DNA of 64,000 nt from Phaeodactylum tricornutum CCAP 1055/1 (lineage: Eukaryota; Bacillariophyta; Bacillariophyceae; Surirellales; Neidiaceae). A program made the translations under genes and the position numbers. The notes under the pieces are model-generated. The model was not told the origin of the DNA. It saw only the letters and a program-made list of their open reading frames with translations, and searched no databases. Location: positions 62,001-126,000 of the forward strand of contig NC_011672.1 of assembly GCF_000150955.2 (NCBI RefSeq), read 5' to 3'. Below, in pieces: positions 7,265-61,707 of the stretch; position 1 is the first letter of the stretch, and each line of letters starts with the position of its first letter.

Positions 7265-9883
7265 CTATTCGTTCGGAGTGCTAGCTATCGTGACGGGTTC
7301 AAAGCTTGTGTGCCACGAATCTGGTTCGGGGTCAACCACAATCCATCGCAGTCCATTCTCACTACTCGCTTCCACTTTCATAGTAAAGCCGTCCCCGTCA
7401 TCTTCCTGCGACTCATTGGATTTGATCGAACAATCGTCGACGGTTTCGTTAGCATCGTACGTGACGGTATCGGTGTAGCTGCCCCCCAACTCGTGGTCCT
7501 GGCACGGTCCTATCAATGCCAATGTTCGACCGCGCGCCAATCGCTTGGTCACCCGCAACGGCAACGTGCGGGGGTTACGATCCGTAAAGCCGAAAACGGG
7601 ATGTTTCGACATGCGGGATTGTTCAAGTTGTTCCCGTAGCCAGACAATTTGGTCAGAATCGGGCTGTACTTTATCGGGATTTGTGCATAGTGCAAGGCAC
7701 TGAACACCAAGTATCCAAAAGGAACAAAAGGCGGTGCCATCGTTGAGCAGGATAGGGATGGAATCACGAATCCGAGCCAAGACTTTGCGGCATTTGGCAT
7801 CGATCGTTCCGGTTACAATTACAAGTTTAGGCCGCTGTCGGTTGATGGTGGCCACGCATCGTTTCAATTGCTTCAAGAACAGTTTACGCTCATCGTCATC
7901 CATCGCGCCGTCCCGGATCTGGGATCCAAAGAGAGGATTGGAGATGTAAACAAGGCGAATCGGGTCGATAGGGACGGGTGTGGCGTGCGGGTCGGGGTTC
8001 TGCAACGCGTGCGGAGCTTTACCCTGGTCGTCGTTCATTTGCGTCCAGCCCGTCACGTCCCGGGTTGCCGGTCGAATCCGATTTAGCGGAGCCATCAAAG
8101 GATCCGCAAAGAACCTCGCGTATACGCGGGGATCCCGTAGCCGCTGCTGTCGATCCAAAACGTGCAGCACCATGTCACGATCTCGTGAACTCAAGCGCAG
8201 CATGTCGTGAGAAGATCCGTCGCCGGGAGGGTGTCGGTCACTAATGTCTAAATGGTGGGCATCTCGGTGCGCCAACTCAGCCACGGACCGTACACACAAA
8301 TCACGCAGGGTTGGTATCGGGGTTTGCGCCTTCACTGTGTCATCCGCGTGGTGGTACTCGGCAAAATATGCATGCTCGCGTATACAGTCATACCCGCCCG
8401 GTAACGATCGCATGGTAGGCTTGTCCATCCCGTCGGGTGTTTGGACGGTGTAGACATCAGCTCCCAACCGCGATTGTGGATCTAATCGCAGCCATGCTTG
8501 GATAAGATCCCAGGCGTCGTTGTCGACGATACCGACCGGCCGTGTGACGAGTCCCCGCGCAATCCGTAGAAAGGCCAAATACGGCGAAGTTGTCCAGAAG
8601 ACGGTCATGCCCGTATGCAAAATATACAGCAAACAGCCCAACGCCCACAAGTCAGCGGCTGGACCGGCACCAACAACGTCACCATGATCCTGGCGTGCGG
8701 CCTCCGTTTCTGCCATACTGGACGTGCCTTTGACGGCTTCGGGACTCATGAAATCTGGAGTCCCGACGAACTCGGGACCGTTCAAGTCGGTCTCGAGCAA
8801 ATCCTTGGCCGTTCCAAAATCAATCAGAATGACGTGTCCGCGCCCGTTCAAGAGAATGTTTTCGGGTTTGAGATCACGGTGGACAACGCCATGCTTATGA
8901 CAGTGTTCGACGGCCGCAAGGAGCTGGTACATCCAGATTTGTGCACAGGAACGGTGTGCGCCAACCATGCGGGATTTTGGAGACGGTGAGGACCATCCTT
9001 CGTTGCCGGGAAGATCACGTAACTCACTCCACAAGTCCGACCAGGCATCGTGCAATTCCATCAGATAGTACAACGTGGTGTAGTCTTGAAAGGCATGAAA
9101 CATTTTGACCACGTTGGGATGCCGGGGGAGGCGCTGGAGCAGTACGCGACGCTCCATATTAACTTCGTTGTAGACGTTGGGATGTTGTCGTTTGGCGAGT
9201 TCCTCGCAGCGCTTTTTTTCGATGCGTTTGAGAGCGAAGCGTTCGTTCGTTATCCGATGCGTGACCACCTGAATTTGCGAAAAGTTGCCGTAGCCAAGTT
9301 CTTGGTGCACGCGGAACTCGCGAATGGAAACTCCGCGGGTGACGTCTTCAATGGACGTTTCCGGGGTAGTATCTTTGGGCTCTTTGGAATCGCTGCTTTG
9401 CTCTAGGGCAGCCTGCAGTACTTGGGTCCACAGATCCTGGAGCGCCTGGTGCTGTTGCTGAAAGGTAACGTCATTGGGATCTTCGTCACCACCCGATGCT
9501 TCGGGCACCGGACTTTGTTGTTGCAAGGCTTTCAGTCCGGCTTGGATGATTGCTTTGGCGTCGGCGTATTGGTGCAATTGTCGGTACGTCTTGGCCAATC
9601 GGTAGGCAGCCTTAACGGAAGTGTGCTGGGACAAGTCCCACGCTTGTTTGGCATCTTCCAGTGCTGCCGGGTAGTTCTGCTGTTGTCCGTACGCGGCGGC
9701 ACGATTCAAATGATTGAGTACGAGTTCGGGCGTGTCCAGAGTGTCCGGAGACGTCGCGGCGACCCGCAAGGCCTCCGTGTAGAGCACGACGGCGTGCTCG
9801 TAATTGTGTTGTTGAAACTCGTGATTGCCGCGCTGTCTCAGATCCGCAGCAGACTCTGTCTCGGAAACAGCGTCGGTACGCAT
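7265..9883 (-). CDS. TPR - PDK1-like Ser/Thr kinase - metallophosphoesterase-like fusion protein
   Basis: Predicted 872 aa in one exon. Residues ~10-130 form about three TPR repeats (GNHEFQQHNYEHAVVLYTEA, NRAAAYGQQQNYPAALEDAK, YRLAKTYRQLHQYADAKAII). Residues ~190-505 are an AGC-type kinase closest by eye to PDK1: Lys in FALKRIEKK, HRDLKPENILL (~333), DFGTAK (~351), then GTPDFMSPEA and DLWALGCLLY. The glycine loop is reduced to GYGNFSQI and the APE is SPE. The last ~240 residues (from ~640) follow the plan of calcineurin-like phosphoesterases of the CPPED1 kind (KLVIVTGTIDAK, QIVWLREQLEQSRMSKHPVFGFTDRNP), but the positions normally GD and GH for metals read GT and GFT, so this part is probably inactive. 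PDK1 usually ends in a PH domain, which I do not see. No signal peptide; likely cytosolic. A taactgtgag motif lies at 9901-9910, 18 bases upstream. Confidence 0.85.
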   Translation of the reverse strand: MRTDAVSETESAADLRQRGNHEFQQHNYEHAVVLYTEALRVAATSPDTLDTPELVLNHLNRAAAYGQQQNYPAALEDAKQAWDLSQHTSVKAAYRLAKTYRQLHQYADAKAIIQAGLKALQQQSPVPEASGGDEDPNDVTFQQQHQALQDLWTQVLQAALEQSSDSKEPKDTTPETSIEDVTRGVSIREFRVHQELGYGNFSQIQVVTHRITNERFALKRIEKKRCEELAKRQHPNVYNEVNMERRVLLQRLPRHPNVVKMFHAFQDYTTLYYLMELHDAWSDLWSELRDLPGNEGWSSPSPKSRMVGAHRSCAQIWMYQLLAAVEHCHKHGVVHRDLKPENILLNGRGHVILIDFGTAKDLLETDLNGPEFVGTPDFMSPEAVKGTSSMAETEAARQDHGDVVGAGPAADLWALGCLLYILHTGMTVFWTTSPYLAFLRIARGLVTRPVGIVDNDAWDLIQAWLRLDPQSRLGADVYTVQTPDGMDKPTMRSLPGGYDCIREHAYFAEYHHADDTVKAQTPIPTLRDLCVRSVAELAHRDAHHLDISDRHPPGDGSSHDMLRLSSRDRDMVLHVLDRQQRLRDPRVYARFFADPLMAPLNRIRPATRDVTGWTQMNDDQGKAPHALQNPDPHATPVPIDPIRLVYISNPLFGSQIRDGAMDDDERKLFLKQLKRCVATINRQRPKLVIVTGTIDAKCRKVLARIRDSIPILLNDGTAFCSFWILGVQCLALCTNPDKVQPDSDQIVWLREQLEQSRMSKHPVFGFTDRNPRTLPLRVTKRLARGRTLALIGPCQDHELGGSYTDTVTYDANETVDDCSIKSNESQEDDGDGFTMKVEASSENGLRWIVVDPEPDSWHTSFEPVTIASTPNE

Positions 9884-10801
9884 GAGAGTGCTTTGCTGAC
9901 TAACTGTGAGACAACCCGAAGAAAGTTTCTATCGACCGCCAAGTTTTGTTTGCTGTTGGTTAGTTTGAACCAACGAGGCCAACAAAACCGGAAAATTCCT
10001 GCGTCTGTGTTGTGTGTGTCGGTCGTCAACGGTCCCCTTTGGTACAATGCCAGAGACTGGATGCGAGATACGGGAGACAATGGACGGTGAATGCGGTTGT
10101 TCCTATAGATATTAGGGTAGGGTTCGGAACACGGGACTGTGCGTCCGTCGTTTCTAAACTGTAAAAGTACCTGGGTACCCTTTACCTACCTAGTTCCACG
10201 AAATGCCTATGATTGGATTTCCCTACATTACCCAGGCCTCTTCTAAGATAGCCATGTTGATTTTCACTGTCAGTTCCATCATTGTATTGTTTACATTACA
10301 TGCTCGACTCGACTGTGAATGCTACCACTCTCAGTACTTCCAATAGGCATTTGGAATCAACATGTATTGTACGAACTTTTTACTACCGTCGAGCGGATGG
10401 CACCACGGATCGACATTGCACAAATTTCTAATTTCAACTTTTGTGTTTTTTGGAAAAAGTACCATCGTGACAGTGAGAACGCGAACACAATAGGAAACAT
10501 CTCTATGTGTACCCGTGCTAGCACCGAGAAACACACAGACAACGTAGGACACCACGATTCTACCCGACAGTCCGGGAACAGGGAAGAGGTGCATTGTGAC
10601 AGTTAGTTATACGTATAGCATGGACTCTCGGTGACCAAAAGAATACCGGAGTCGTTGCGGATTCTCGCTACCCATACCGTGCCCGTCCTACCAGAGAGGT
10701 CCGAGTTTCGGCCTGGTTCGTCCAAGATTCATTGTTGCCACAATCACAATTGTATCATTTTCTTCTTCCGTTCGCTGATTGGACCCTCGGTACTATTCAA
10801 C
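9884..10801. promoter_or_regulatory. Divergent intergenic region with several ACTGT-type motifs
   Basis: 918 bases between the leftward kinase gene and the rightward glycosyltransferase-like gene, so probably two promoters back to back. It contains five copies of an ACTGTNA or TNACAGT motif (9901-9910, 10264-10273, 10311-10320, 10468-10477, 10597-10606), the densest group in the window. The open frame of the right-hand gene extends back to 10631 without changing the preferred start. No RNA gene was seen. Confidence 0.4.
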
Positions 10802-19392: not shown

Positions 19393-21279
19393 TTAGATTG
19401 CATTTTTCCATTGTAGAGGCAAGACGCTGTCCGGCAAACCGATTGAATGGCGAAACGTGTTCGACAAATGCATGTCGGACAAGTTAGGCCGAGTAAACTG
19501 GGCTACACCTCGTCGCGGAACTTGGTGTCGTTCCAGAACGAGATCATTTTTCGGAATTGAAAGGTCAGCCTTGTGCTCGTCCGAAAGTATCTCCAAATCC
19601 AACTCTACCGTGTAAGCGTATTCACTAGGATCCATCTCGGAAGCGTATCGCTGAAGCACATGGCACGGTAGTCCGTAGTTTACTAACAAAGGAGACTCGG
19701 GTGTTTCCAACCAATTGTATTGACTTTGTCGATATGTCGGCTGAAGCAAAGCTACATGGCAGCGTGTGTGGAGATGCTCCGGATAAGGATCAAACTCCTG
19801 TTCGGATCGTGTACGAAGGGGAATGTGAAGCTGATGATTGTAAACATAGTCGGGCTGGATGATTTTCCCATCAATCGGTTGGTATGTTCTTTTATGCTCT
19901 TGCCAGGCTGTCTCCCAGGCATCTCCGTAATCCAATAGAATTTCTTCGCCCTCAGAAATATTTCGTAGCGCAACGTAGTCAAATGCCAGCTTCAATTGGA
20001 AGTCGAACGAGTTTTCTACTGTTCGCTCGGCAACCGCTGTAGCGTTGTGCCATGGGTTGAGAGACCAGCGAATGCGGACATTGGGATTGCGATCATGATT
20101 GATGTAGTTAACTCCCGGACCATATGGACACAAGGTCATAGTGGTGTTGGGATGGCCGAAGCAATAGTTGAGCAGCAGTTGCTTGGTATGTACGTGATCG
20201 CTTTCGCGTTCCCATGTACCCTTGTCATTTTGTTTGAGTACGTACATGTTAAAGTAGTCCAAGTCCGGAAAAACGTGTAATGGAGACGTTGATACGATGG
20301 TTCCCTGTGGGAGATCGCGAGCTGCGACAGCTCCTTGCCCCGCTTCGGGATGTTTAGGGGACAACGGCACCGGTCTGACATGATCCACACACTGTCCGTA
20401 AGAAGTGAGATATTCCAAAGAATGCCGCGACATATCCTCGTGAAATCGAAGAAGACCAGATTCGTCATCACCCGCATCATGCGCATGTTGAGGCTCTCGT
20501 GGTAGCGTTTTAAGAATGCGCGACTGAAAAGTACCTGTTACTGCCTGCACTATGTCGAACAAGTCTGTAAAAAGTGGTGACACCGAGACTGTGGAGCTTA
20601 TCCGATCTACGAGGGGGGCCATTCTATTTAACAATGCTTGCCCACGTCTAAAGTCTTCTGGAAAAGCAAAGGAATCGCCCAAAGCCTTGGCGCGGCTCGG
20701 GAACCAAGTGGGTCCGTAGGACTTGAACAGCTCTCCACCAGGTGGAATGCGTCGGGATACCCGGGTGGTGGAGTTACGGTAGGGTGAAACAGCACCAGCG
20801 TTCGGGCTGGTGCGAAATATCCCTGCGGGAAGGTACTGCGCCACGTGACTTTTATTCGGCGAGCCCAAGTTCAGGACGAACTGGTGCGAATTGACCAAGG
20901 CGTCAATGCCGGGACAGAACGCTTCGAGATGGAGCGCCGGATAGGCTTCTAAAGTCATACCGACGTCAATATGGCTCCATGTGTAGTCCCCAAGGGGATG
21001 AAAGAATGGCTTGGAATAATTGCGATGCAAATGTGGGTTGACAATAGGGATGCAGATGTCACCGTAGCCAGCCTTGGTCCCTTCTTCCCAAGCCTGATGG
21101 CCAACAAACAGACCGAGCCCGGCGCCCGGGATTGTAGATGGGGCCAGATACAAACCACATTCCAATGGCTTAGATTCCTTGGTCAAGATTTGTTTCTCAA
21201 TCAACCCAGACTGTGATTCTCCATCCACTGAGCAGGACAAGAGAGAGATGAATAGGAGTGACGACCAAGTGTTTTTCAT
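19393..21279 (-). CDS. Secretory tandem-SET-domain protein A
   Basis: Predicted 628 aa, one exon. It opens with a clean signal peptide (MKNTWSSLLFISLLSCSVDG). Two SET-like modules follow. The first (~40-215) starts at STIPGAGLGLFVGHQ, has DALVNSHQFVLNLG at the usual NH...N place, and ends with GGELFKSYGPTWF. The second (~300-460) starts at GQGAVAARDLPQGTIVS, has VNYINHDRNPNVRIRW (~390) and EEILLDYGDAW (~445), keeping the NHxxxPN-like and DYG elements of active SET lysine methyltransferases; the first has NSH and SYG instead and is probably degenerate. Conserved Cys are in NYCFGH and TLCPYG. The C-terminal ~150 residues are shared with the divergent neighbour. A secreted, ER or plastid place is implied by the leader, unusual for SET proteins; there is no ASAFAP-type aromatic residue here. 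The substrate is unknown. Confidence 0.85.
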   Translation of the reverse strand: MKNTWSSLLFISLLSCSVDGESQSGLIEKQILTKESKPLECGLYLAPSTIPGAGLGLFVGHQAWEEGTKAGYGDICIPIVNPHLHRNYSKPFFHPLGDYTWSHIDVGMTLEAYPALHLEAFCPGIDALVNSHQFVLNLGSPNKSHVAQYLPAGIFRTSPNAGAVSPYRNSTTRVSRRIPPGGELFKSYGPTWFPSRAKALGDSFAFPEDFRRGQALLNRMAPLVDRISSTVSVSPLFTDLFDIVQAVTGTFQSRILKTLPREPQHAHDAGDDESGLLRFHEDMSRHSLEYLTSYGQCVDHVRPVPLSPKHPEAGQGAVAARDLPQGTIVSTSPLHVFPDLDYFNMYVLKQNDKGTWERESDHVHTKQLLLNYCFGHPNTTMTLCPYGPGVNYINHDRNPNVRIRWSLNPWHNATAVAERTVENSFDFQLKLAFDYVALRNISEGEEILLDYGDAWETAWQEHKRTYQPIDGKIIQPDYVYNHQLHIPLRTRSEQEFDPYPEHLHTRCHVALLQPTYRQSQYNWLETPESPLLVNYGLPCHVLQRYASEMDPSEYAYTVELDLEILSDEHKADLSIPKNDLVLERHQVPRRGVAQFTRPNLSDMHLSNTFRHSIGLPDSVLPLQWKNAI

Positions 21280-21605
21280 GGTGCATTGGAGGAGTCGGAC
21301 AAAAGAATAAGACGTTTGTTCGTGTAAGGAAAACTTCGCCGGTGTCTACTGTGTCGAATTTTAACAGTAAATAATATGATCGTTGTCAAAAGTCCCTATC
21401 TAACTGGATTCGTAGGAAGTGCAACTCCCAAACATTAAGCTTTCCGAATGTCCTACCGTTGTCGTTTCATAGGGTCTAGTTCCCGAACTTGCAACATTAA
21501 AAAGCGCGGTGAGCTGAACCAACACATTACATTAATCCTTTCCAAGACCTGCTCGGTTGACCAACCGTAAAAAGAACAATTGTATCTTTATTGCTGTGGC
21601 TCAGG
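21280..21605. promoter_or_regulatory. Short bidirectional promoter region between two SET genes
   Basis: 326 bases separate the start codons of two divergent paralogues, so they probably share regulatory sequence. It contains a ttgaccaaccgtaaaa variant of the recurrent motif near 21556-21571. No other element recognised. Confidence 0.5.
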
Positions 21606-23685
21606 ATGGGCAAAGTCTTATCACTCGCAAACCTTGCGATTGCTCGTTATATTTCTCTAACCCCTGCGGTCCGTACCTTGATGCTGCTACAAGTAGTGGC
21701 TCTGCTTTTGAACTTGTGCGGCGCTTTTGAGCCACCGAAGACTCTTCGCAATGTTCCTCTGGACCGCTCCGATGTCGGACGTACAGGGCTTTCCCCAGAA
21801 CCTACGTGCGGACAGTATTTGGCACCGTCTATCCTCCCTGGAGCCGGTTTGGGCATGTATTCGGGTGTGGAAATCGAAGAAGACGATCCTGTGAGCTACG
21901 GAGACATTTGTATTCCACTAATTGATTTGAAATTGGTACGTCCATTCCCAGGACAGAATTCTGTATCCACTTCCCGCAATGATTCGCACTTTTCGTAGCG
22001 GCTTGCAACGAAGCTTGTGAATACTTTTCGTCTCCACGAGATCTAACGGTGTTTTTTCTTCAATACTTTTGCATCAGCACGTCGGGAACGATGACAACGA
22101 CTTCTACAATCCCTTTGCCGCCTACGTGTGGCAAGCCAGCGCCTTGGGTATGATTGATCTCAACCTTTCGAAGGATGTCAGTGCCTTCTGTATGGGTATC
22201 AACAGTATTGCCAATTGCCACCTCCCCTTAAAGCATGCGTACCAGACTAAGCCGGAATACGATCCTCAAGTCCTGCGACACAGGCACGCCTCGGTTGGAT
22301 CTTTTACGCCCTATTTCAACCTCACATCTTTCGCGGCACGTCCCATTCCGTCGGGCAGTGAAATTTTTAAGTCGTACGGCAATTACTGGTTTGAAACCCG
22401 ATCCGACACGTTCGGTCAACAGTTTCCTTTGTCGACTTCATACAAGGAAGCTAGCAACCTTCTGGAAAAATTGTTTGTGTCAATGAAATTGACCAGCTCT
22501 CTAAGTGCGAGCTTGTACGATGAGGTGGTGTTGAGTATCAAAGAATTGCTACCTTCGCGTACCATGAACGCCTTTCCCAATACGGTACCCCATGCCATTT
22601 TAGGAGCTCACGAAAGCTTGGCTGCTGTTCATCAAACACTGGTCATCCGAGATTTGGAGTGGTTGCGATTGAATGGTCGGTGCCTGGATCATATCCGTCC
22701 GGGAACGTCAACTCTTGAAAACGTTGGGCACGGTGCATTCGCCACACGAGATTTATCATCCGGAACTATCGTGTCTGCCTCCCCTGTACACCACATTGAG
22801 CGCGCATTTACCCAAATGTATGAAGTCAGATACGATGAAGCTGCCAAAAAACATGTACCCGACAAATCAAAAATTGTTGCCTATCAGCTGCTATTAAATT
22901 ATTGCTTTGGCCACAATGAATCAACTGTGTTGGTCTGTCCCTATGGAAATGGTGTAAATTATATCAACCACGTCCGGGAACATGCCAACGTCAAGGTGCG
23001 CTGGGCTCAAGACTTCCCAGCTCACCAAGATGATGTCCTGCATCAGGCAACCCCCGAAGACCTCTTCAATTCCACTGCGGAACCTAAATTTGTTCTCGAA
23101 TATATTGCTTTACGCGACATTGTAGCAGGCGAGGAAATATTTTTGGACTATGGCGAATCCTGGGACGCTGCGTGGAATGCCCACTCCTTGTCCTACGAGC
23201 CGTTTGGTGGAGCTACCTCGGCTGAACGCTACCGAGATGCGTTTTGGGTCAACGAAAATCACGGTGACATGCCACTACGAACTCGGCAAGAGCAAATCGT
23301 GGATCCGTACCCAGATAATTGGGTTTTGCGCGTTCACCCCTGGGTCTTGCAGCACCACATAAAGTATGGCTACCTTTCTGGCAATTACGATTGGCAGGAG
23401 TCAGATCGTACTCCACTCCGCGATGATTTCGGCTTGCCTTGTCAAATTTTGGAGCGGCACGAAAACGGAACCATTCCACACAAGTACACAATCCTGGCTG
23501 ATACCACTAGCGTTGATTGGTTCGAGACAGACAGCGTGGCCATTTCTCAAGTGCCTCGATCGGCTTTGACCTGGTTGAACGCACCCGGAACAATGGATTT
23601 TCATCTCCCCAACGCCTTTCGACAACCCATAGGATTGTCGGACGAAATGATGCCAACCCAATGGCGGAATCTCCTGGCCAAGTAA
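21606..23685 (+). CDS. Secretory or plastid-targeted tandem-SET-domain protein B (two exons)
   Basis: Exons 21606-21935 and 22078-23685 give 645 aa. The ATG at 21606 is the first in frame (the open frame runs back to a TTG). The leader ends MLLQVVALLLNLCGAFEPP: a hydrophobic stretch then GA-F, which fits the diatom ASAFAP-type plastid presequence. Module 1 starts at SILPGAGLGMYSG and ends IPSGSEIFKSYGNYWF; NSIANCH replaces the canonical NH. Module 2 has GHGAFATRDLSSGTIVS, LLLNYCFGH, GVNYINHVREHANVKVRW (~403) and GEEIFLDYGESWDAAW (~462). It is clearly a paralogue of the leftward SET gene over its whole length, including the shared C-terminus ending LPNAFRQPIGLSDEMMPTQW. Relative to that gene it has gained, or the other has lost, one intron. 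Substrate unknown; SET activity is inferred for module 2 only. Confidence 0.85.
21936..22077 (+). other. Intron of SET gene B
   Basis: 142 nt, begins GTACGT and ends TTTTGCATCAG, phase 0. Placed by comparing the protein with the intronless paralogue: the join PLIDLKL/HVGNDDN aligns with PIVNPHLHRNYSK. Confidence 0.85.
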
Positions 23686-50782: not shown

Positions 50783-53700
50783 TTAGACTTTGTCGTCCCC
50801 ATTGACTCCAGGGGACGTGTTCAGTGTAGCCTCAATTGCACTAGCTTTGCCCTCCACAGCTCCAAAAAGAGCATCTCCAAGTTCTACGTCACCACGTTCC
50901 AGAGCCAAGTCCCCCTTAACAACATCCCTAAACATCTCGAGAGACCATTTCAACAACTTGTCGCGCAAAAAGTCTTCGATAAAGACGGAGGTTCCGCGGA
51001 AGAGAGGCTGTAAAATACGAGGGGGGACAATTGCCATTCTGACATTCATGAGGCAGGAGGTTTCAGAATCCGGAACAAATTCAACAATTCCTCTATTAGT
51101 CAAACCCGAAACAGACTCCCACGAAATCCCTGGCCAGGGATCCTCCACAACTTGACTTATAGCTTTCCAGGTGAGAGAAATTCCTCGAACATTCACTTTC
51201 CATTGGGATTCTGTGCCCTGATATTCAACACTTGTAATCCAAGGCGACCAGCGTGGCTGTTGGGGTAAATCTGTAAACCGGGAACACGCAATTTCGGCCG
51301 AGAACGGAAGTGGGAGGGTAACAACCACGCTGATTTCCTTACCACTGCTACTAGTGGATGTCGAAGCTTCATAGCTCTCTTCTTTTGTGTCTGCTACTGA
51401 GCGTGCCGGTACTATTTCCTGCTGAACATTGAGACTTTCTGAAATGTCATTCAAACTCAATCCATAAAATGCCCGCGCAAGTGATGCAATATTGAGCTGT
51501 CCTTGTTCGTTCACGTAGGAATCAAAAGGAGGGGAAAGCGTGTCGCGTCCGACCTGCTCAAAGGTCCCTACCCCGTGGGCCAATGGTGGAGAACGAGAAG
51601 GATGACTGTCCGATAGTGCGCCCAACATTGCCGTATATGTCAGACCAATTCCTGAGTCAAATGACGAGGAGAATATAACTCCTAGTCCGAGCTTTGAACG
51701 CACTAAACGAGCAATCTGAGCAGATCGTTCGACTCCGACCAATGCCGGTTTCAAAACGACAGCTCTGCAACCGCGATTCCCCTCTTTAAACGCTTCTTCT
51801 AGCTCCGGAAGGATTGAGTGTATTAATCCCTCATGGCTTTGCACCAAGTCGCTAACAGATTCGTCCAGAGCATACATAATTCCTGTATGGTGGAACCATC
51901 GCTCCAAACTTTCGACTTGGCCCTCGAGAGACCACTCGTCGGTGTCATCCATATGCTTTAACAGTGGCTCTTCAATAAACTCGATCTTGTTGATGGCATG
52001 TAACTCGATACCATCTAACGCCGATGCAAATTCCATCGCCTCGGTGTCGTTCCACGCTCGATTGGCGTCTACACGGATTTTGGTGCTCTTGCCACCTTTG
52101 TTGCTACCTAAGTATTGAAAGGCGTTGAACATGGCGTTTGAGTCGTCCATCAGATTCTGATATCCTACCTTGACTTTCAGAGATTCATAGCGCCTACCGC
52201 CTTCTCGAATCTTAGAAATTGACCCACGGCTCACAAACCCGCTAACCCTAACCATTTTTATGGAATCAGGCGACAAACTAGAATCCATATTTGCATATGT
52301 GAGCAAAGCTTGATGCAAAGGCAATCGGACAGCTTGAGCGGCTACATTCAGCATTGCGGTTTCAAGGCCAAAGCGAACAGATGCTAGCAACCTTTCCGCT
52401 CCTGCATCAAAGGCTAACTTGTCGAGGTAAGAAGACAATTCACCACGAAGGCTAAGCACGCTTTCAGCTGGTATAGAGGAAAATAAGTGACCACTATCAT
52501 CAGTCGCCACGAGGTAGCTTTGGAGCACTGAAAGCTGCTTTCTAGCATCCTCGAGCGATTCTGAATGGAGCCCTCGTAGAGGACTCACTTCTCCGATTGC
52601 AACTTCGTTGCTTTCTGATTTCATTTCCAAAATGAAGCCTTGTCGCTGTGCACAAATTCTTTTCGCATCGGCTTCTTTGTCCCACCCTACTCCAGCAATT
52701 CCTCTCGAATCGCTATTTTTGTCCACAAGATCTATACTGAACCCCTCGAAATTCAATTCAGCAATACCAACGTTTGGGGTTTCGCCCCGGGTGGTGCCGA
52801 GATCAGCACTTCTTCCTTTTTCGATAAGAAGAGGCTGTCGCCGGTCTATTGTTGGGGGTGCCTCAGCGGCTACAGCAAAGACTTTGTCCGACTCTTGTCG
52901 TTCCATTTCTTGGGAATCTCCATGTGCTAGCGATGCAGCATTAATCTCAGTAGTGAGAGCGTCAACGAAGATATTTGCAATTGTATTAGGAACCTCTGTT
53001 AGAAGAGCGTGGCCGGCATCGGATATCTCAATGTATTGCACTTCATCACGTTTGGCAAAGGACTTGCCGATGTCTGAGTATTTCTTGTCTAACTCGCCAG
53101 CAACGTATAAGGTAAATTTTGGGAAATTTCTTTCCGTTTCAGTTTCCTTGTTTCTCGGTGGAGAGCAGCATGCTAACACCTCCGCAATATCTCGTCCCCT
53201 GCGGCTGAGCGACGCGGCCCTCCTACTTTGCAGTAAATGATAGGGTTCCCCCTTTTGCGACAGTCGACCCCAAAGCGGCATGTCGTACCACCGGTTGAGT
53301 ACGTCTGTCCATTGAGAGTTGCTACATTTGGGTCTTTGAAGGCAAGTTCTAAGCCAAATCGAGGATAGTTTTCTTGCGAGGCGATCATCTCTCTCAATTC
53401 GCTCTCTATCATTCTCGTCCCATTCACCTTGTCCGACTTTGCTAGTTTCCCAAATTTTTCTTTTCGCTTCTGGGACCACCGATCCTCTTGATTCATTTAT
53501 GTATGCACCAGGAAATGTGCTAAGCAAAATTGTTCTGCTCTCACTGTGAATTATTGGATTTGAAGAAGCTTCGTTTGCCAAAGAGATTGCTTTCATAGCA
53601 AGGGCAACACGCCCTCCCAAAGAATAGCCTCCGATTGCATCAATACTCTCCAAGTTGTGATGTTCGCGCAACGAAGTGAGTACCGTCGCAGCGATTCCAT

Positions 53701-56700
53701 TAATACTGTAGTCAAACTCATTTGTGGGCGTATTATACCGCAGCATTGCCTTGACAGCCTGAATATCAGACGACATTCCAAAAGGAGACGAACCATGCCC
53801 GGGCAACTAGTCACATTAAATAAAGAGAAATATGAGGTCGGCACTCCAACGACGAACGCTATTAAGTGTAAGAGAGATAGTCCATGACTTACATCAACTG
53901 ATATTACTGTCCAATTTTGGCCCAGACGCTTCACCAGTTCATCAGCGACTTCATCCCAATCCGTCTTCTCCCCCATCCAACCATGCAGTAACACTAGCGT
54001 GCGGCGATTTTTCGGGGCTTTGCTTTCGCTATTTTGAACGGAGTATTGTTTAATGGAAAGCCTTTCACTGTCAGTAGTTTTTTGGGCTTTCTCCTTTAGA
54101 AGAGCTCCTATCAAGGTTTCTACGCGTTTGGTCACTCCCCGGTGGATTGCAACGTTTGCTGCTCTTCCCGCCACTCGGGCTTCAATGAGTCTATGCTTTG
54201 AGGTCTGCTGAGATGTAGTATAGACCTTCCGAAAAGAGGAATAATCTGTTGCTCGATCAAACGTTAAACCAAAGGCTTCTGCTCCCTTCTCGAAAGAAAA
54301 GCTGTTCGTTGGAGTGCCAAAAAATTCGTCGAAGGCGACATCATTTCCGTGCTGAGCTATCGGCAAAAACGAAAATATGCCACCGCCATCATTGTTGACA
54401 ACAATTGTGGTAAGCGGACTTCGCTTCTTTGCACGAGCTTGGTTATAAGATCTGGCCATGTCCGTAGCCAAAGAATGAAGCGAGGATACATCGTGCAGTG
54501 TCGCCAGGTCCCCGATTACCAAAGTTGTCGGTGACTGAATCGATTCTGAAAATCCAAATGCCGATGAAATTATGCCATCTATACCACTCGCTCCTCGATT
54601 GGTCCCAATTTGCTGCAGACTAGGGAGTCCAAGTCGTTGCTCTTCTTTTGTAAAGGGATAAAGAAAGCACTCTGCGTCGCGTATCGGCATGGAATTGGAA
54701 AGAAAGAGCGAGTGTTGGTCGACTCGCTGTTCAAAGTCCTCTGCGAGAGCTAGAATAATTTCAGGCTCCGTAAGCATCGGGTTGTCTTCGGACTTCATTA
54801 GTAGTCTCGGCAACGTCAAGGATAATGTGCTTCATCTCATCCCGAAGTCCTCTTCCGAGGAGCACTAGCGGTGCAAGTTCACTACTAGTTACCGAGCCAT
54901 CCCTTTCTATCAGGTCAGAGACGCTTTTCAAAAATGGAGAAATATTGGTCGATATGCGATGTGATACGGTAAATCCTGGGTCCATTCGTTCGTGTGGGGT
55001 ATGCGGATGGAGCAAAACATGCCGTGCCGAAGTCGCCGTGTTCTTCATCGCTCCTTCTATTACCCCCGTAATTTCGGTGGAGACGAGAGGTGCACCAATT
55101 TGAAGGATCAAGTCTGGTTGTACGTTTTCTTTCACGATGGCGCACTTCAGCAGATGTTCTGCAAAAGGCACGACCGCCGAGCTCATAAAGCGTAAGCGAG
55201 CGGCTTGGACACCCGCGAAGATAGGAAAGCCAATCAACTCGGCAAATTCCGAAATCGCTGCTAAAATTTGTTTTTGATCGTCCAAATCCCGTCCGTCAGA
55301 TCCACGCAAGTTCCCGACCACGATAAAGCCTCTCTTGGACTTTTGGATCAAGCTAGCAACAAGGCGAACAACCCCCGGGTCCATCATTTTGTTCACCGAC
55401 GATAGATACTTGGTAAAGACATCACCTCCCGTAGACCATCTACCAAAGCCTGGAACGTCCGTAAAACGAAAGCCGTTATACCTGGTTTCCGCGTCTCCCC
55501 GTCTGTCGTTGCGAATGGGACCGGCATCCGGTGCAAGATTTTCCCGGAATTGAATATTGACGTGCACTGGTCCCCGCATCCCCTTGGCAAGGCTCACCGC
55601 GTGTCCCGCATCCGACAGAGCCACGGATACGGGAACATCGTCACTGGGAGGCAGAATATCCCGGAACCAACGGATGTAGGTAGACGAAAAATGTTTGACT
55701 TGGTCAATGGCTTGATTGGCACCCGTATCTCGTGATTCGTAAGGGCGATCGGCTGTCAAAACAAGCACGGGGACACCGTCCATTCCAGCCTCGACAATGG
55801 CGGGGTACAAATTCGAGACGGCGGTTCCACTCGACGTGATAATCGCTGCGGGGCGGTTGGATCCTCGTCCGTACCCCACGGCCCGAAATCCTGCCGCACG
55901 TTCATCGTGAACGCTCACGGCGTGTACGACACCCACATAGGTGCGGACGGCCTTGGCAATGGCCACGACCAACGGCGTTGACCGCGAGCCGGGGCAGACG
56001 TAGAATTTGGTTACGCCGTGACGTATAAGTTCTTCAATAAAGGCCGTGGCCCACGCCGCATTCGGAGTGGGGGCACTCGACAAGGTAATGGGAGATTGTG
56101 GAAAAACGGATGAAATAACCCCAAATTTGTAATTGATTTCGGCCCATTCGTTTTGCAGCGAACTGCCGGCTACGATACCACCACCGGCGTAAAGCGCGAG
56201 CGATGACTTTGAACCGTGGTGGGAGACCAAACCGGACCGGATGGCCACCATAATTTCGGTGGATTCACGGCCGATGTAGCCAATGGGTCCGGCGTAAAAG
56301 CCTCGGTCGAAGCCAATCGCTTCGTGATCACGAATAAACTGGCGAGATTCCTCCAGAGGAACACCACAGACTGCCGGTGTCGGATGCATCGTTGTCAGGA
56401 GACGTTCGGCCACGTCCCGAAGGTTGGCCGGGTCGGTCAATTCGGCGGTATATCCTTGACAAATGTGTTGCAAATGCAGTAAACGTCGGACAAAGAATCG
56501 CTTCTCATCCGTTTCGGACGGCGACTCCCATCGGACTAATCGGGCATCGGCCAGGTTCTGGAATGCCTTTTCAATGTAGCGACCGGTCAGGCGATTTTCG
56601 TGTCGATCTTTGGGAGACGCGAATAAATCTCGCAAGAGTTCGGCGTCCAGATCGGGGGTCGATCCCCGCGGTCGGGTCCCGGCCAGTGCTTCGGATCGAA

Positions 56701-58204
56701 GCGTGGTACCCGACACGCTGAACAATCGTTCCGGTGTGCAGCCAAAGAATTCTGTACCGACGCCAGCAACACGGCCACCGCCACTCGCAGCCGTACTCGT
56801 CCCGCTACTCCGTCGTCCAGGCCGCAACCAGAACAAATGTCCACCTTCGTGACCCCCGTATTTCCATCGCCGTAGGACGTGTAGGGCACTCCAGTCGTCG
56901 ACGTTGACGTGCACGGTTTGTTTGCGTGCCAGGACGACTTTTTGGAGCGTGGCGTTGCCGGCCTCGGACGCCTGTTGCTGGCGCAACAAATCCAAGGCCT
57001 TGCCGACACTGCCTTCGTACAGTTCTTGTCCATCCATGGTACCGTAATTGGAATCCCGCGAAAGAACGGGTGGCAAGGTGGTGGGCGGTACCGGTGCGAG
57101 GCATCGATCGGTCAACCGGGACAGAACAGCCTGTCCGGTACGTGCGGATTCGGTCCAGGTACCATCGTTGGCGTGACGGAGTACGTGTACGGCCAAGGTG
57201 GTGACGGTCTGGTTCGTGTTGGGATCGGTGGTGGTCCGCAATTCGACGGCGGGCAGGAACCAAAAGGCTTGTCCGAAAGCGGACCATTCGTCGGCGACGG
57301 GGACGTGGGGGTCAAACCGGGCTCCTCCATATACGTGGGAGTCTTTCGGTAGTTGGGACCAGAGAGTATGATTCCACAAGTCGGCCGTGTCGTGAAAGGT
57401 GCGGACACTGCCCACACAGGAAGTTTCCAGGGTTTGTTCCTGATTGGCCAAGTAAAAGGCCACATCGTTGTCGCAATCGTGTTGGTGATCGTGGTCGTTC
57501 TCGCGTGTCCGGTGTTCCTGTTGGGCACTCAACCAACCCAGGGTATCGACGGGACTTTCCAGTGGCACTTGTATGCGCAGTAAGGTTTCGTCACGGTATC
57601 GTTCGAGGATGGCGTGGTCGACGTGCGTCGTGTTGCTATTGTACAATTTGTTGTTGTTGTTGTTGTTGTTGTTATTGTTGTTGTAGGCGGCGTGTTCGAG
57701 TTGGACCAGACGATCGAGCGCTTGTCGGAGGAGTCGCAATCCACGATGCAACGTGACGGTGGGACCGTTGTGGTGTTCATAGTCCTGGTGACTACTGCGG
57801 TAGACGATCCAGGGATGTAGAATGGCGTCTGGCGACACGGACGATGCCGCTCGATCGGGCGTCGCAACAACACCGTCGACGAGCGATTCCGAGTCCGTCC
57901 GCCATCCTTGTTGTCCCGTCGTTGCGGGTCGTACGAACAAACGACGGTTCTCCAGGAGTGTCTTCACTCGGGGGTAGATCGTCCGTCTCGATCCCGATGG
58001 CACCCAGGCTCCAACGCTGGGTATTGGGAACGACGCAAGGTATCCACAGATCCAACCCGCAATCCAGGCTTGGACGAGCCAACGGAGGAAGAGAGGAGTC
58101 TGGCGAGTCACTCCAGTGTGACTCTTACTACTCGTGTGGGTAGTGTCGACGTCAATATAGAGTCGTGCGTTCTGACGTGCGACCGACCGATGGGATGATT
58201 GCAT
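50783..58204 (-). CDS. PHYLLO: PHYLLO-type phylloquinone synthesis protein: MenF-MenD-MenH-MenC plus SRPBCC domain
   Basis: About 2,440 aa turning chorismate into o-succinylbenzoate for phylloquinone. The ATG at 58204 gives a plastid-type leader (WLVQAWIAGWICGYLASF...SVGAWVPS). MenF: LAGTRPRG (~505), YAGGGIVAGSSLQNEWAEIN (~670). MenD: YVCPGSRSTPLV (~735), DERAAGF, later NSMPIRDAECF, NRGASGIDG, VVNNDGGGIFSFLP. MenH: LVLLHGWMGEKTDWDEV, nucleophile in GGYSLGGRVAL, His in SDAGHALLTEVP. MenC: LKVKVGY, RVDANRAW, FIEEPL, YALDES, VLKPALVG. All key residues are present. The last ~170 residues resemble a polyketide-cyclase/START-like (SRPBCC) domain (RFTDLPQQPRWSPWITSVEY). One intron is clear (53807-53892). 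MenD changes frame near 54790: the frames ending at 54761 and starting at 54819 overlap by 59 nt, as if one base were extra there; this may be an assembly error. Confidence 0.9.
53807..53892 (-). other. Intron in the MenH part of the PHYLLO-type gene
   Basis: 86 nt, begins GTAAGT and ends GTGACTAG. Removal joins WTVISVD to LPGHGSSP, the conserved VDLPGHG of MenH. Confidence 0.92.
57644..57680. repeat. In-frame trinucleotide run coding poly-Asn
   Basis: A TTG/TTA run on the plus strand, read on the minus strand as about twelve Asn codons in the MenF region of the PHYLLO-type protein. It lies in a linker, not in a catalytic motif. Confidence 0.85.
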
Positions 58205-59557: not shown

Positions 59558-61707
59558 ATGCCGTGTCCGTCCCGATCGCCCGCATCGACGCGTCGGTCGC
59601 GCACGTGTTCCTTCGGAACTTCGGCGTCGTGTGAATTCTCCCCCCGACCCGTCCGACATCTCTTGTTCCTCGCGCTCCTCGCCTTTACGTACTACCGCAG
59701 TGAAGCGTTGGCTAGTAGTCGCCACGGTGGCGTCGTGGGGCCGCACCGACTCGCCCGACGACTCGACACACCCACGAGTCGCGACCCGGACCGTGTTGCG
59801 TGTGGGACGAGTTTTACTAGTACTAGTAGGAGTACTACTACTACTACACCCGTTCGACCACTACCGCACTCCTCCGATTGCCCTTTGCTCTCCGTGGCGG
59901 GAGTCGAGCCTCTACCGCCCTCACCGCCGCCGGGGTGACACCCGACGAGCCCAATCCGTTCGATACAAACAGCAACAACAACAATAATAACAACAAGTTA
60001 CATCCGCAATCGGCGCGTGAAACCCTTCCTTTTCTAACCAAGAATGACAAGAACGGTCGGGTCCCCGCCAATGGCGCCACGGTCACCACCCTACCACTCG
60101 GAAGCGTCCACACGGTCAAGGCCTGCGACGACGACGTCGTGGCCGAGTACGTGGCCGAAACCAAACTACCCACCGATGTGGGACAATTCCAGTTGAGGGC
60201 CTACCGGGTACCTGGTGCTCCCCTCGGACAAGAACCCTGTGTTATTTACGCCAGAGATCAACCGCCCTTTGGCGACGCCGCCAACGGACTCGCCCAACAC
60301 GTGCCCGTACGCATTCACGATCAGTGTCTCACGTCCGAAGTCTTTCGATCCCAACGGTACGTGACTTGACGAACGCATCCTTTTGCATACAATCCACTCG
60401 TTCTTACTCACACTCGCAAATTATGTCCCACACTCTCTCGTACTAGCTGTGATTGCAAAGAGCAGTTGCACATGGCCTTGCTGTACATTCAAAAACACGG
60501 CGGATGTATTATTTATCTACAACAGGAAGGTCGAGGCATTGGATTGGCCAACAAGGTGGCGGCATACGCCTTGCAGGACAATGGGCTGGACACGGTGGAC
60601 GCCAATCTGCATTTGGGCTTCCCCGAAGACAGTCGCGAGTACGGTGTCGTCAAGGCCATTCTGCGAGACATGCAAATAGGTTCCATCCAACTCATGACTA
60701 ACAATCCGCGCAAGGTAGAACGCATGGCTCGACTCGGTATCGTCGTTGACCGGACCCTACCCATGGTGGTTCCACAAACGAATCCGTACAACCACAAGTA
60801 CATGGAAACCAAAAAAACGCGCATGAACCACGAAAATCTGGCTACTCTGCTCGCCCAGGACCCCAATTTACCACCGGCCGTGACCCAGGCCAACGCCATC
60901 ATGGCACCCCGCAAGCACCTGGCCGATCAATATATTAACAACGGCACGGAAATGACGGCCAACGCGGTACAAGTATCGCTCATGGTGGAAGACGAGGCCG
61001 ACGGAGCGACCGACGTGCAAACTCGGCCGCACGAACAAGGCGTCCGCGCGGCCGAGGACGGGTACTGCTTCGGGAAACAGTCCGTGATAGACGCCATTGC
61101 GTCTATGAAACGCGGTGAAATGGTCGTCGTCGTTGACGATATGGATCGGGAAAACGAGGGCGATTTCATCATGGCGGCGGATCAGTGCACGGAACTAGAC
61201 ATGGCACGGATTGTACGCTACTCCTCGGGCGTCGTGTGCATCGCCATGGAAGGCTCACGACTGGAAGAACTAAAGTTACCGCCCATGGTAACAAACAACC
61301 AAGATCCCAAAGGCACGGCCTTTTCCGTAACGGTGGATGCGACCAAAAAGCACGGTATCACCACCGGCATTAGTGCGTCGGATCGGGCCACGACCATCAA
61401 TCTATTGGCGAATCCCTCCACGGCGGCGATCGATTTTCATCGACCCGGACACATTTTTCCGTTGCGGGCGCAAGAAGGTGGCGTGTTGGCGCGGGACGGA
61501 CACACCGAGGCCGCGGTAGACCTATCGCGACTAGCGGGACGGAGTCCGGCGGGGGTTCTTTGTGAAATTGTCTCGGAAGACAATCCGACGGAAATGATGC
61601 GACTACCGGAAATTAGACGTTTTTGTAAGCGCCACGGGTTCGTGCTGACCAGTATTGTGGACATAGCACAGTACAGAAGAGAGACGGAGCAGCAAGCACA
61701 TCAATAA
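59558..61707 (+). CDS. RibA-RibB fusion: GTP cyclohydrolase II then DHBP synthase
   Basis: Bifunctional riboflavin enzyme. GTP cyclohydrolase II opens GTP; 3,4-dihydroxy-2-butanone-4-phosphate synthase makes the four-carbon unit. The cyclohydrolase part (about 60150-60840) has the zinc cysteines in QCLTSEVF and CDCKEQLHMAL, then LQQEGRGIGLANKVAAYALQ and MTNNPRKVE. The synthase part (about 61055-61680) has VVVVDDMDRENEGDF, GITTGISASDRATT, HRPGHIFPLRAQEGGVL and DGHTEAAVDL. The usual bacterial and plant RibBA order is the reverse. Exons: ...60356 and 60447-61707. The 5' end is not settled: the ATG at 59558 opens a frame with a hydrophobic signal-like segment (HLLFLALLAF), but the catalytic frame is open only from 59830, so another intron or a start after it is needed. 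An Asn run lies near 59970-59997. Plastid location is likely. Confidence 0.9.
60357..60446 (+). other. Intron in the RibA part
   Basis: 90 nt, begins GTACGTGACTTG and ends CTCGTACTAG, phase 2. Removal restores FRSQR/CDCKEQ, the conserved zinc site of GTP cyclohydrolase II. Confidence 0.93.

Follow-up and report, generated by a model that had tools for sequence, protein, structure and literature searches.

The gene at positions 58204 to 50783 on the minus strand of a 64,000 nt stretch of Phaeodactylum tricornutum CCAP 1055/1 (contig NC_011672.1, positions 62,001–126,000; this whole stretch is here called the window) very probably represents the diatom form of PHYLLO, a single nuclear-encoded protein that would convert chorismate to o-succinylbenzoate (OSB) in four steps. 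Pfam and NCBIfam domain searches reveal the module order MenF-MenD-MenH-MenC-SRPBCC. This architecture was published for diatoms in 2008, and the present gene is one more example of it. The architecture, an intron and the presequence are in keeping with a diatom source. The new lead is the apparent kinship, judged from sequence similarity, of the fifth module to a cyanobacterial protein family that is linked to zeta-carotene desaturase (ZDS).

The features of the gene are listed in Table 1. The initiator at 58204 is the sole in-frame ATG between 58258 and 57900. The protein is probably plastid-targeted: read by eye, the end of the presequence (VGA↓WVP) resembles the diatom plastid-targeting motif A-X-A↓F/W. 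Exon 3 (53806–50783) has 1,007 open codons that cover most of MenH followed by MenC and the SRPBCC domain, and the other five frames of this segment have 26–70 stops each. There is no in-frame ATG between 51628 and 51049 of exon 3, and the SRPBCC core starts at approximately 51334; an intact SRPBCC domain would thus have no start of its own within this exon. Two compositional properties are also present. There are 11 contiguous asparagine codons (AAC/AAT, positions 57650–57682, minus strand) upstream of the conserved part of MenF, and the G+C content is 57% in the MenF part (56100–58204) vs approximately 47–48% in exons 2 and 3 (50783–54792) of the same gene.

Table 1. Features of the PHYLLO gene, in window coordinates
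Feature	Position	Strand	Remarks
Whole PHYLLO gene, ATG to stop	50783–58204	minus	About 2,437 aa on the 22-nt reading of the MenD frame change
N-terminal presequence	58007–58204	minus	Hydrophobic stretch ending ...PSVGA↓WVPSG; by eye from the translation
MenF (isochorismate synthase) module	56114–57583	minus	Chorismate_bind PF00425, E 3.3e-48; 8w6v
MenD (SEPHCHC synthase) module	54130–56053	minus	Spans the frame change; TIGR00173, PDB 2x7j
Frame change inside MenD	54793–54814	minus	22-nt GT..AG stretch or small insertion/deletion; exons 1 and 2 are in different frames
MenH (SHCHC synthase, alpha/beta hydrolase) module	52967–54006	minus	TIGR03695, motifs
86-nt intron inside MenH	53807–53892	minus	GTAAGT ... 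GACTAG; splicing restores the DLPGHG motif
MenC (o-succinylbenzoate synthase, enolase superfamily) module	51542–52660	minus	TIGR01927, OSBS alignment
SRPBCC/START-like domain	50915–51334	minus	Place of the 'duf COG5637' of Gross et al. 2008; putative kin of the cyanobacterial ZDS-linked family

An earlier note on this DNA, made from the sequence without database searches, had read the MenF, MenD, MenH and MenC motifs on one strand with catalytic residues intact. Domain searches agree with the module identities, and the coordinates of the note are accurate; the frame change in MenD and the 86-nt intron in MenH are additional to it. The MenF module is matched by chloroplastic isochorismate synthase 1 (8w6v) with an E value of 6.9e-44 over residues 226–715. 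MenD scores 257.4 bits with TIGR00173 from exon 1 alone and 312.6 bits in the joined reading (cut-off 244.2), and the solved bacterial MenD 2x7j matches both halves of the module (E 1.8e-36 and 5.5e-29). The best family for MenH is TIGR03695, with 101.5 bits after splicing, which is below the cut-off of 208.55 of this bacterial equivalog. The MenH motifs, i.e., the GYSLGG serine, Asp and His, are present, and we take them to have the catalytic roles. MenC scores 111.5 bits with TIGR01927 (cut-off 130.55), and MenC_N and MR_MLE_C are also matched. Alignment to the solved OSBS chains 3gc2 and 1fhu shows that the D, E, D and K positions, presumably the catalytic ones, are kept in MenC, as had been claimed; its KVK is at 52180–52160 on the minus strand. 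In MenF, MenD and MenH the conserved motifs are present and the domains align to relatives, with residue roles that are likewise assumed. As in PHYLLO, all four Men modules are in one coding sequence when the genomic sequence is read across the frame change in MenD. They would take chorismate to OSB for the phylloquinone of photosystem I. The order F-D-H-C is that of the four chemical steps and may ease channelling between modules.

The domain order and the extra C-terminal domain are not new. Both are found in Gross, Meurer and Bhattacharya 2008 (PMC2412073), where the species with PHYLLO include P. tricornutum and T. pseudonana. The passages on diatoms place menC after menH and describe a 3' module, 'duf, COG5637', which gives a 'pentamodular fusion men FDHC duf'. 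The gene described here is alike in its four modules, in their order with MenH before MenC, and in the presence of an additional 3' module. The fifth module is equated with the COG5637-type module by its place and fold class, from the published description and not from sequences. The same passages give no function or origin for it. That MenH before MenC differs from the plant order, as the note had also remarked, agrees with the domain searches and with PMC2412073, which gives menFDCH for green algae and moss, and menF5'DCH for higher plants, with a short and inactive MenF. The comparison with plants that the note had proposed, made here from the literature, sets plants apart and groups the gene with diatoms. 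Since the abstract of PMC2412073 reports PHYLLO genes to be monophyletic in Plantae and chromalveolates, a rearrangement of one fusion is favoured over an independent fusion. The relevant part of Cenci et al. 2018 (PMC6189191) leaves the origin of the PHYLLO fusion open.

The fifth domain gives low scores when it is searched as a single sequence. The last 205 residues match Polyketide_cyc2 (PF10604) with an E value of 2.4e-5 and 25.1 bits, slightly under the cut-off of 27.4, and the domain scores 19.5 bits with PF03364 (Polyketide_cyc, cut-off 23.4); an NCBIfam search of the domain gave no match. However, two cyanobacterial relatives score 73.6 and 73.3 bits with PF03364. The assignment to SRPBCC, weak from the single sequence, is made firm by relatives: cyanobacterial matches have E values down to 2.3e-15, and the two scored with Pfam pass its cut-off. 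The C-terminal SRPBCC domain proposed in the earlier note is upheld.

A family alignment of 43 rows was made from the diatom domain and 42 of 88 cyanobacterial loci. The structure model based on these 43 sequences has a mean pLDDT of 84.9 and displays the elements E-H-H-E-E-E-E-E-E followed by helices. A strand, two helices, six strands and a long helix is the order of elements in the SRPBCC fold, and the fifth domain, as modelled, has this helix-grip fold. The best Foldseek matches of the model in the PDB include Maqu_3174, the START-superfamily protein MSMEG_0129, abscisic acid receptors and TTHA0849, and the aromatase/cyclase ZhuI is also among the matches. In sequence searches the family profile found DR_A0006 of Deinococcus (E 5.2e-13). 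A model of the diatom sequence by itself was poor (pLDDT 56), and its PDB matches were not relied on for the fold. Twelve columns are invariant in all 43 rows, the diatom included; these consist of W, P and F positions and the GL...G of the diatom GLTNRG. Many other positions that are conserved in the cyanobacterial family differ in the diatom domain.

A scan of genome contigs with the SRPBCC domain gave no confirmed relative. A MenD scan of genome contigs (best 80 of 564 matches) gave a cyanobacterial locus, and for this reason the cyanobacterial phylum was searched. At E <= 0.01 the fifth domain has 88 matches in 87 of 194 genomes, one per genome except for a single genome (G120) with two, and the best match has an E value of 2.3e-15 at 38% identity. 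By comparison, four of the 29 non-cyanobacterial genomes searched, which derive from 30 loci chosen among the best 80 of the 564 MenD matches, gave a match, and the best of these is weaker (E 8.4e-7).

The cyanobacterial loci share a neighbour. In 66 of the 88 SRPBCC loci a ZDS homologue precedes the SRPBCC gene on the same strand by 700 bases or less, as determined with a ZDS query from one of these loci (L090) and flanks of approximately 1.5 kb for 15 loci and up to 2.5 kb a side for 73. Two of the ZDS neighbours were checked with NCBIfam TIGR02732 and score 911 and 901 bits. ZDS is above the cut-off in 86 of 194 genomes and the SRPBCC gene is present in all 86; strong members of the SRPBCC profile are found in 87 genomes, and these co-occurrence counts are raw, i.e., uncorrected for shared ancestry. 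The profile reaches 91 genomes at E <= 1e-10; four of them, G017, G042, G045 and G054, have weak matches (E 1e-13 to 1e-16) that were classed as other SRPBCC and left out of the comparison. Non-photosynthetic relatives may account for many of the 107 genomes that have neither gene. Two genomes stand out individually. G175 (locus L122) is the only one of the 194 with a strong SRPBCC of the ZDS-linked type and no ZDS over the cut-off. G001 (locus L014, via a Chamaesiphon contig) lacks both ZDS and a ZDS-linked SRPBCC at the thresholds used, which is odd for a photosynthetic cyanobacterium and may reflect incompleteness or a misplaced contig. The Synechocystis family member is, we presume, slr0941; in the open-access literature no paper was found on slr0941, on ZDS with SRPBCC in cyanobacteria, or on crtQ with polyketide cyclase. 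In the window itself, Pfam shows no ZDS-type domain among 18 other open reading frames (ORFs) that were searched, and the diatom SRPBCC domain is fused to MenC and not adjacent to ZDS.

In a 67-row tree the diatom domain is placed with 41 of 42 rows labelled ZDS-linked, apart from 24 other SRPBCC rows, with support of 96/98. The label was assigned by similarity, and not every one of the 42 adjoins ZDS. The 24 comparison rows, two of which are identical, comprise 20 cyanobacterial sequences and four from genomes of the non-cyanobacterial search. The remaining labelled row, L162, is the second copy in G120 and groups with the other SRPBCC rows. Phylum search and tree both place the diatom domain closer to the ZDS-linked family than to other SRPBCC, in the case of the tree with a long-branch warning from the program. 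We infer that the fifth domain may derive from the plastid ancestor. A cyanobacterial SRPBCC, L136 of genome G086, appears as sister to the diatom domain (98/78) under the same warning.

Several observations weigh against a functional diatom PHYLLO with a ZDS-linked fifth domain. MenH and MenC both score below the cut-offs of the bacterial equivalogs, and in view of the frame change in MenD the copy could be damaged or mis-sequenced. The branch of the diatom domain is very long, with 4.28 changes per column, and the program warns of long branches meeting. The exact sister of the domain is for this reason not to be trusted, and the great length of the branch makes both placement and function uncertain. 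For 22 of the 88 loci the search found no ZDS on the same strand at a distance of up to 700 bases, although some of these genomes have ZDS elsewhere, and four of the 88 have no direct tblastn match to the diatom domain at 1e-3. A men gene is found in the flanks of one locus in 88 (menD, on the opposite strand and about 2 kb off), so the bacterial context gives no family link to synthesis of the quinone head, and the idea that the SRPBCC family typically has men genes as neighbours was rejected.

ZDS passes electrons to plastoquinone. The fold class of the fifth module, the bacterial neighbour ZDS and a report on tomato plastoglobules (PMC9725166) together suggest that the module may bind a prenyl lipid. 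The plastoglobule proteins and candidates in the relevant part of PMC9725166 include ZDS, PDS, MenG and a 'Polyketide cyclase domain protein' (At1g02475), the last of which is brought in here on the basis of its domain description. The same source, citing other work, mentions plastoglobule-like patterns of tagged PHYLLO and MenG. In plants, according to passages of PMC6189191, PHYLLO makes OSB from chorismate in the plastid and OSB is then exported to the peroxisome, where MenE and MenB work. Given this export and the relatives beside ZDS, a prenyl lipid becomes a likelier ligand than OSB. The pocket of the fifth domain would take up a hydrophobic prenyl lipid, with plastoquinone and phylloquinone as the most likely ones, and the domain would thereby anchor PHYLLO to plastoglobules or a prenyl-lipid membrane, or sense the quinone level. 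Such a tether or sensor role is proposed tentatively. The wider proposal is similarly doubtful: the module would be a cyanobacterium-derived binder of prenyl lipid, probably of quinone, whose free form serves ZDS, and the fusion would couple the first committed steps towards phylloquinone to the pool of prenyl lipids in the plastid. If the ZDS-linked protein delivers or senses quinone or carotene for ZDS, then its role in cyanobacteria and the diatom PHYLLO fusion can be tested together.

As likely as the prenyl-lipid role, and thus also well short of probable, is that the fifth domain is a bystander, either a leftover fusion that merely stabilizes the protein or a degenerate SRPBCC fold without ligand. 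The very long branch, the Pfam score slightly below the cut-off and the many changed positions speak for this reading. On the other hand, it retains all 12 invariant columns of the family, its model folds confidently, and passages of PMC2412073 describe the fusion for two diatoms. The earlier note had guessed that the domain holds a quinone intermediate or aids hand-off to MenE/MenB. Direct action on soluble SHCHC or OSB, as an aromatase/cyclase-like helper or as a hand-off pocket to these enzymes, is less likely than the prenyl-lipid and bystander roles and on the whole improbable. The position of the domain directly after MenC and the Foldseek match to ZhuI are consistent with it, but the four classical Men enzymes suffice to make OSB, and the closest relatives found adjoin ZDS in 66 of 88 loci vs a men gene in one. 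The peroxisomal location of plant MenE and MenB (PMC6189191, in part) also argues against a hand-off pocket.

Alternatives also concern the gene itself. The frame change inside MenD may be an assembly insertion/deletion or a very short intron, which appear about equally likely, and the chances are even that the copy is broken or mis-assembled and contains no tiny intron. The stretch 54814–54793 is bounded by GT and AG, contains a branch-like CTACTAAT site and, when removed, brings the two exons exactly back into frame; the remainder of the PHYLLO gene is open. These properties favour an intron. With this reading two MenD landmarks are 108 residues apart, compared to 87–128 in 80 bacterial MenD. 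However, 22 nt is far under usual intron sizes. A 100-nt intron (54892–54793) also restores the frame but is disfavoured in that it leaves 82 residues between the landmarks, below all 80 bacterial MenD, and gives a menD score of 304.7 bits, compared to 312.6 bits for the 22-nt reading; this adds to the case for a broken or mis-assembled copy. The scores cover these two among the enumerated GT/GC..AG pairs. It is far less probable, to the point of being nearly negligible, that the 3' part (SRPBCC, or MenC and SRPBCC) forms a gene of its own, which would make the fusion an annotation artefact. The gene model was read from genomic sequence alone, which would allow such an error, but one open frame extends over most of MenH, MenC and SRPBCC, the in-frame ATG that a separate SRPBCC gene would need is absent from 51628–51049, and the pentamodular fusion is already described for diatoms (PMC2412073, passages cited above).

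Other ORFs of the window have recognizable domains. The ORF at 60370–61707 on the plus strand, a neighbour of the PHYLLO gene, is a riboflavin-synthesis fusion of GTP cyclohydrolase II (residues 21–129) and DHBP synthase (residues 241–435). A single ORF at 7265–9928 (minus strand) has TPR repeats together with a protein kinase domain. Two SET-domain ORFs, 19393–21345 (minus) and 22021–23685 (plus), are divergent with fewer than 700 bases between them.

The fifth domain is of the same broad fold class as the START quinone-binding proteins, of which COQ10 is one. Among PHYLLO proteins, those of plants and green algae have the same activities in one nuclear gene, but MenC precedes MenH and the relevant passages of PMC2412073 name no fifth module. 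The putative PHYLLO of Guillardia theta is a MenD-MenH-MenC protein, with MenF and a further putative MenH as separate genes; a fifth domain is not mentioned in the part of the 2022 paper (PMC9244630) that concerns it. The members of the cyanobacterial ZDS-linked SRPBCC family are approximately 150 aa in length and are similar to the diatom domain over a domain length, with 23–36% identity over the alignment. They are encoded by stand-alone genes that mostly adjoin ZDS/crtQ, usually downstream of it, whereas the diatom domain is fused to the men enzymes.

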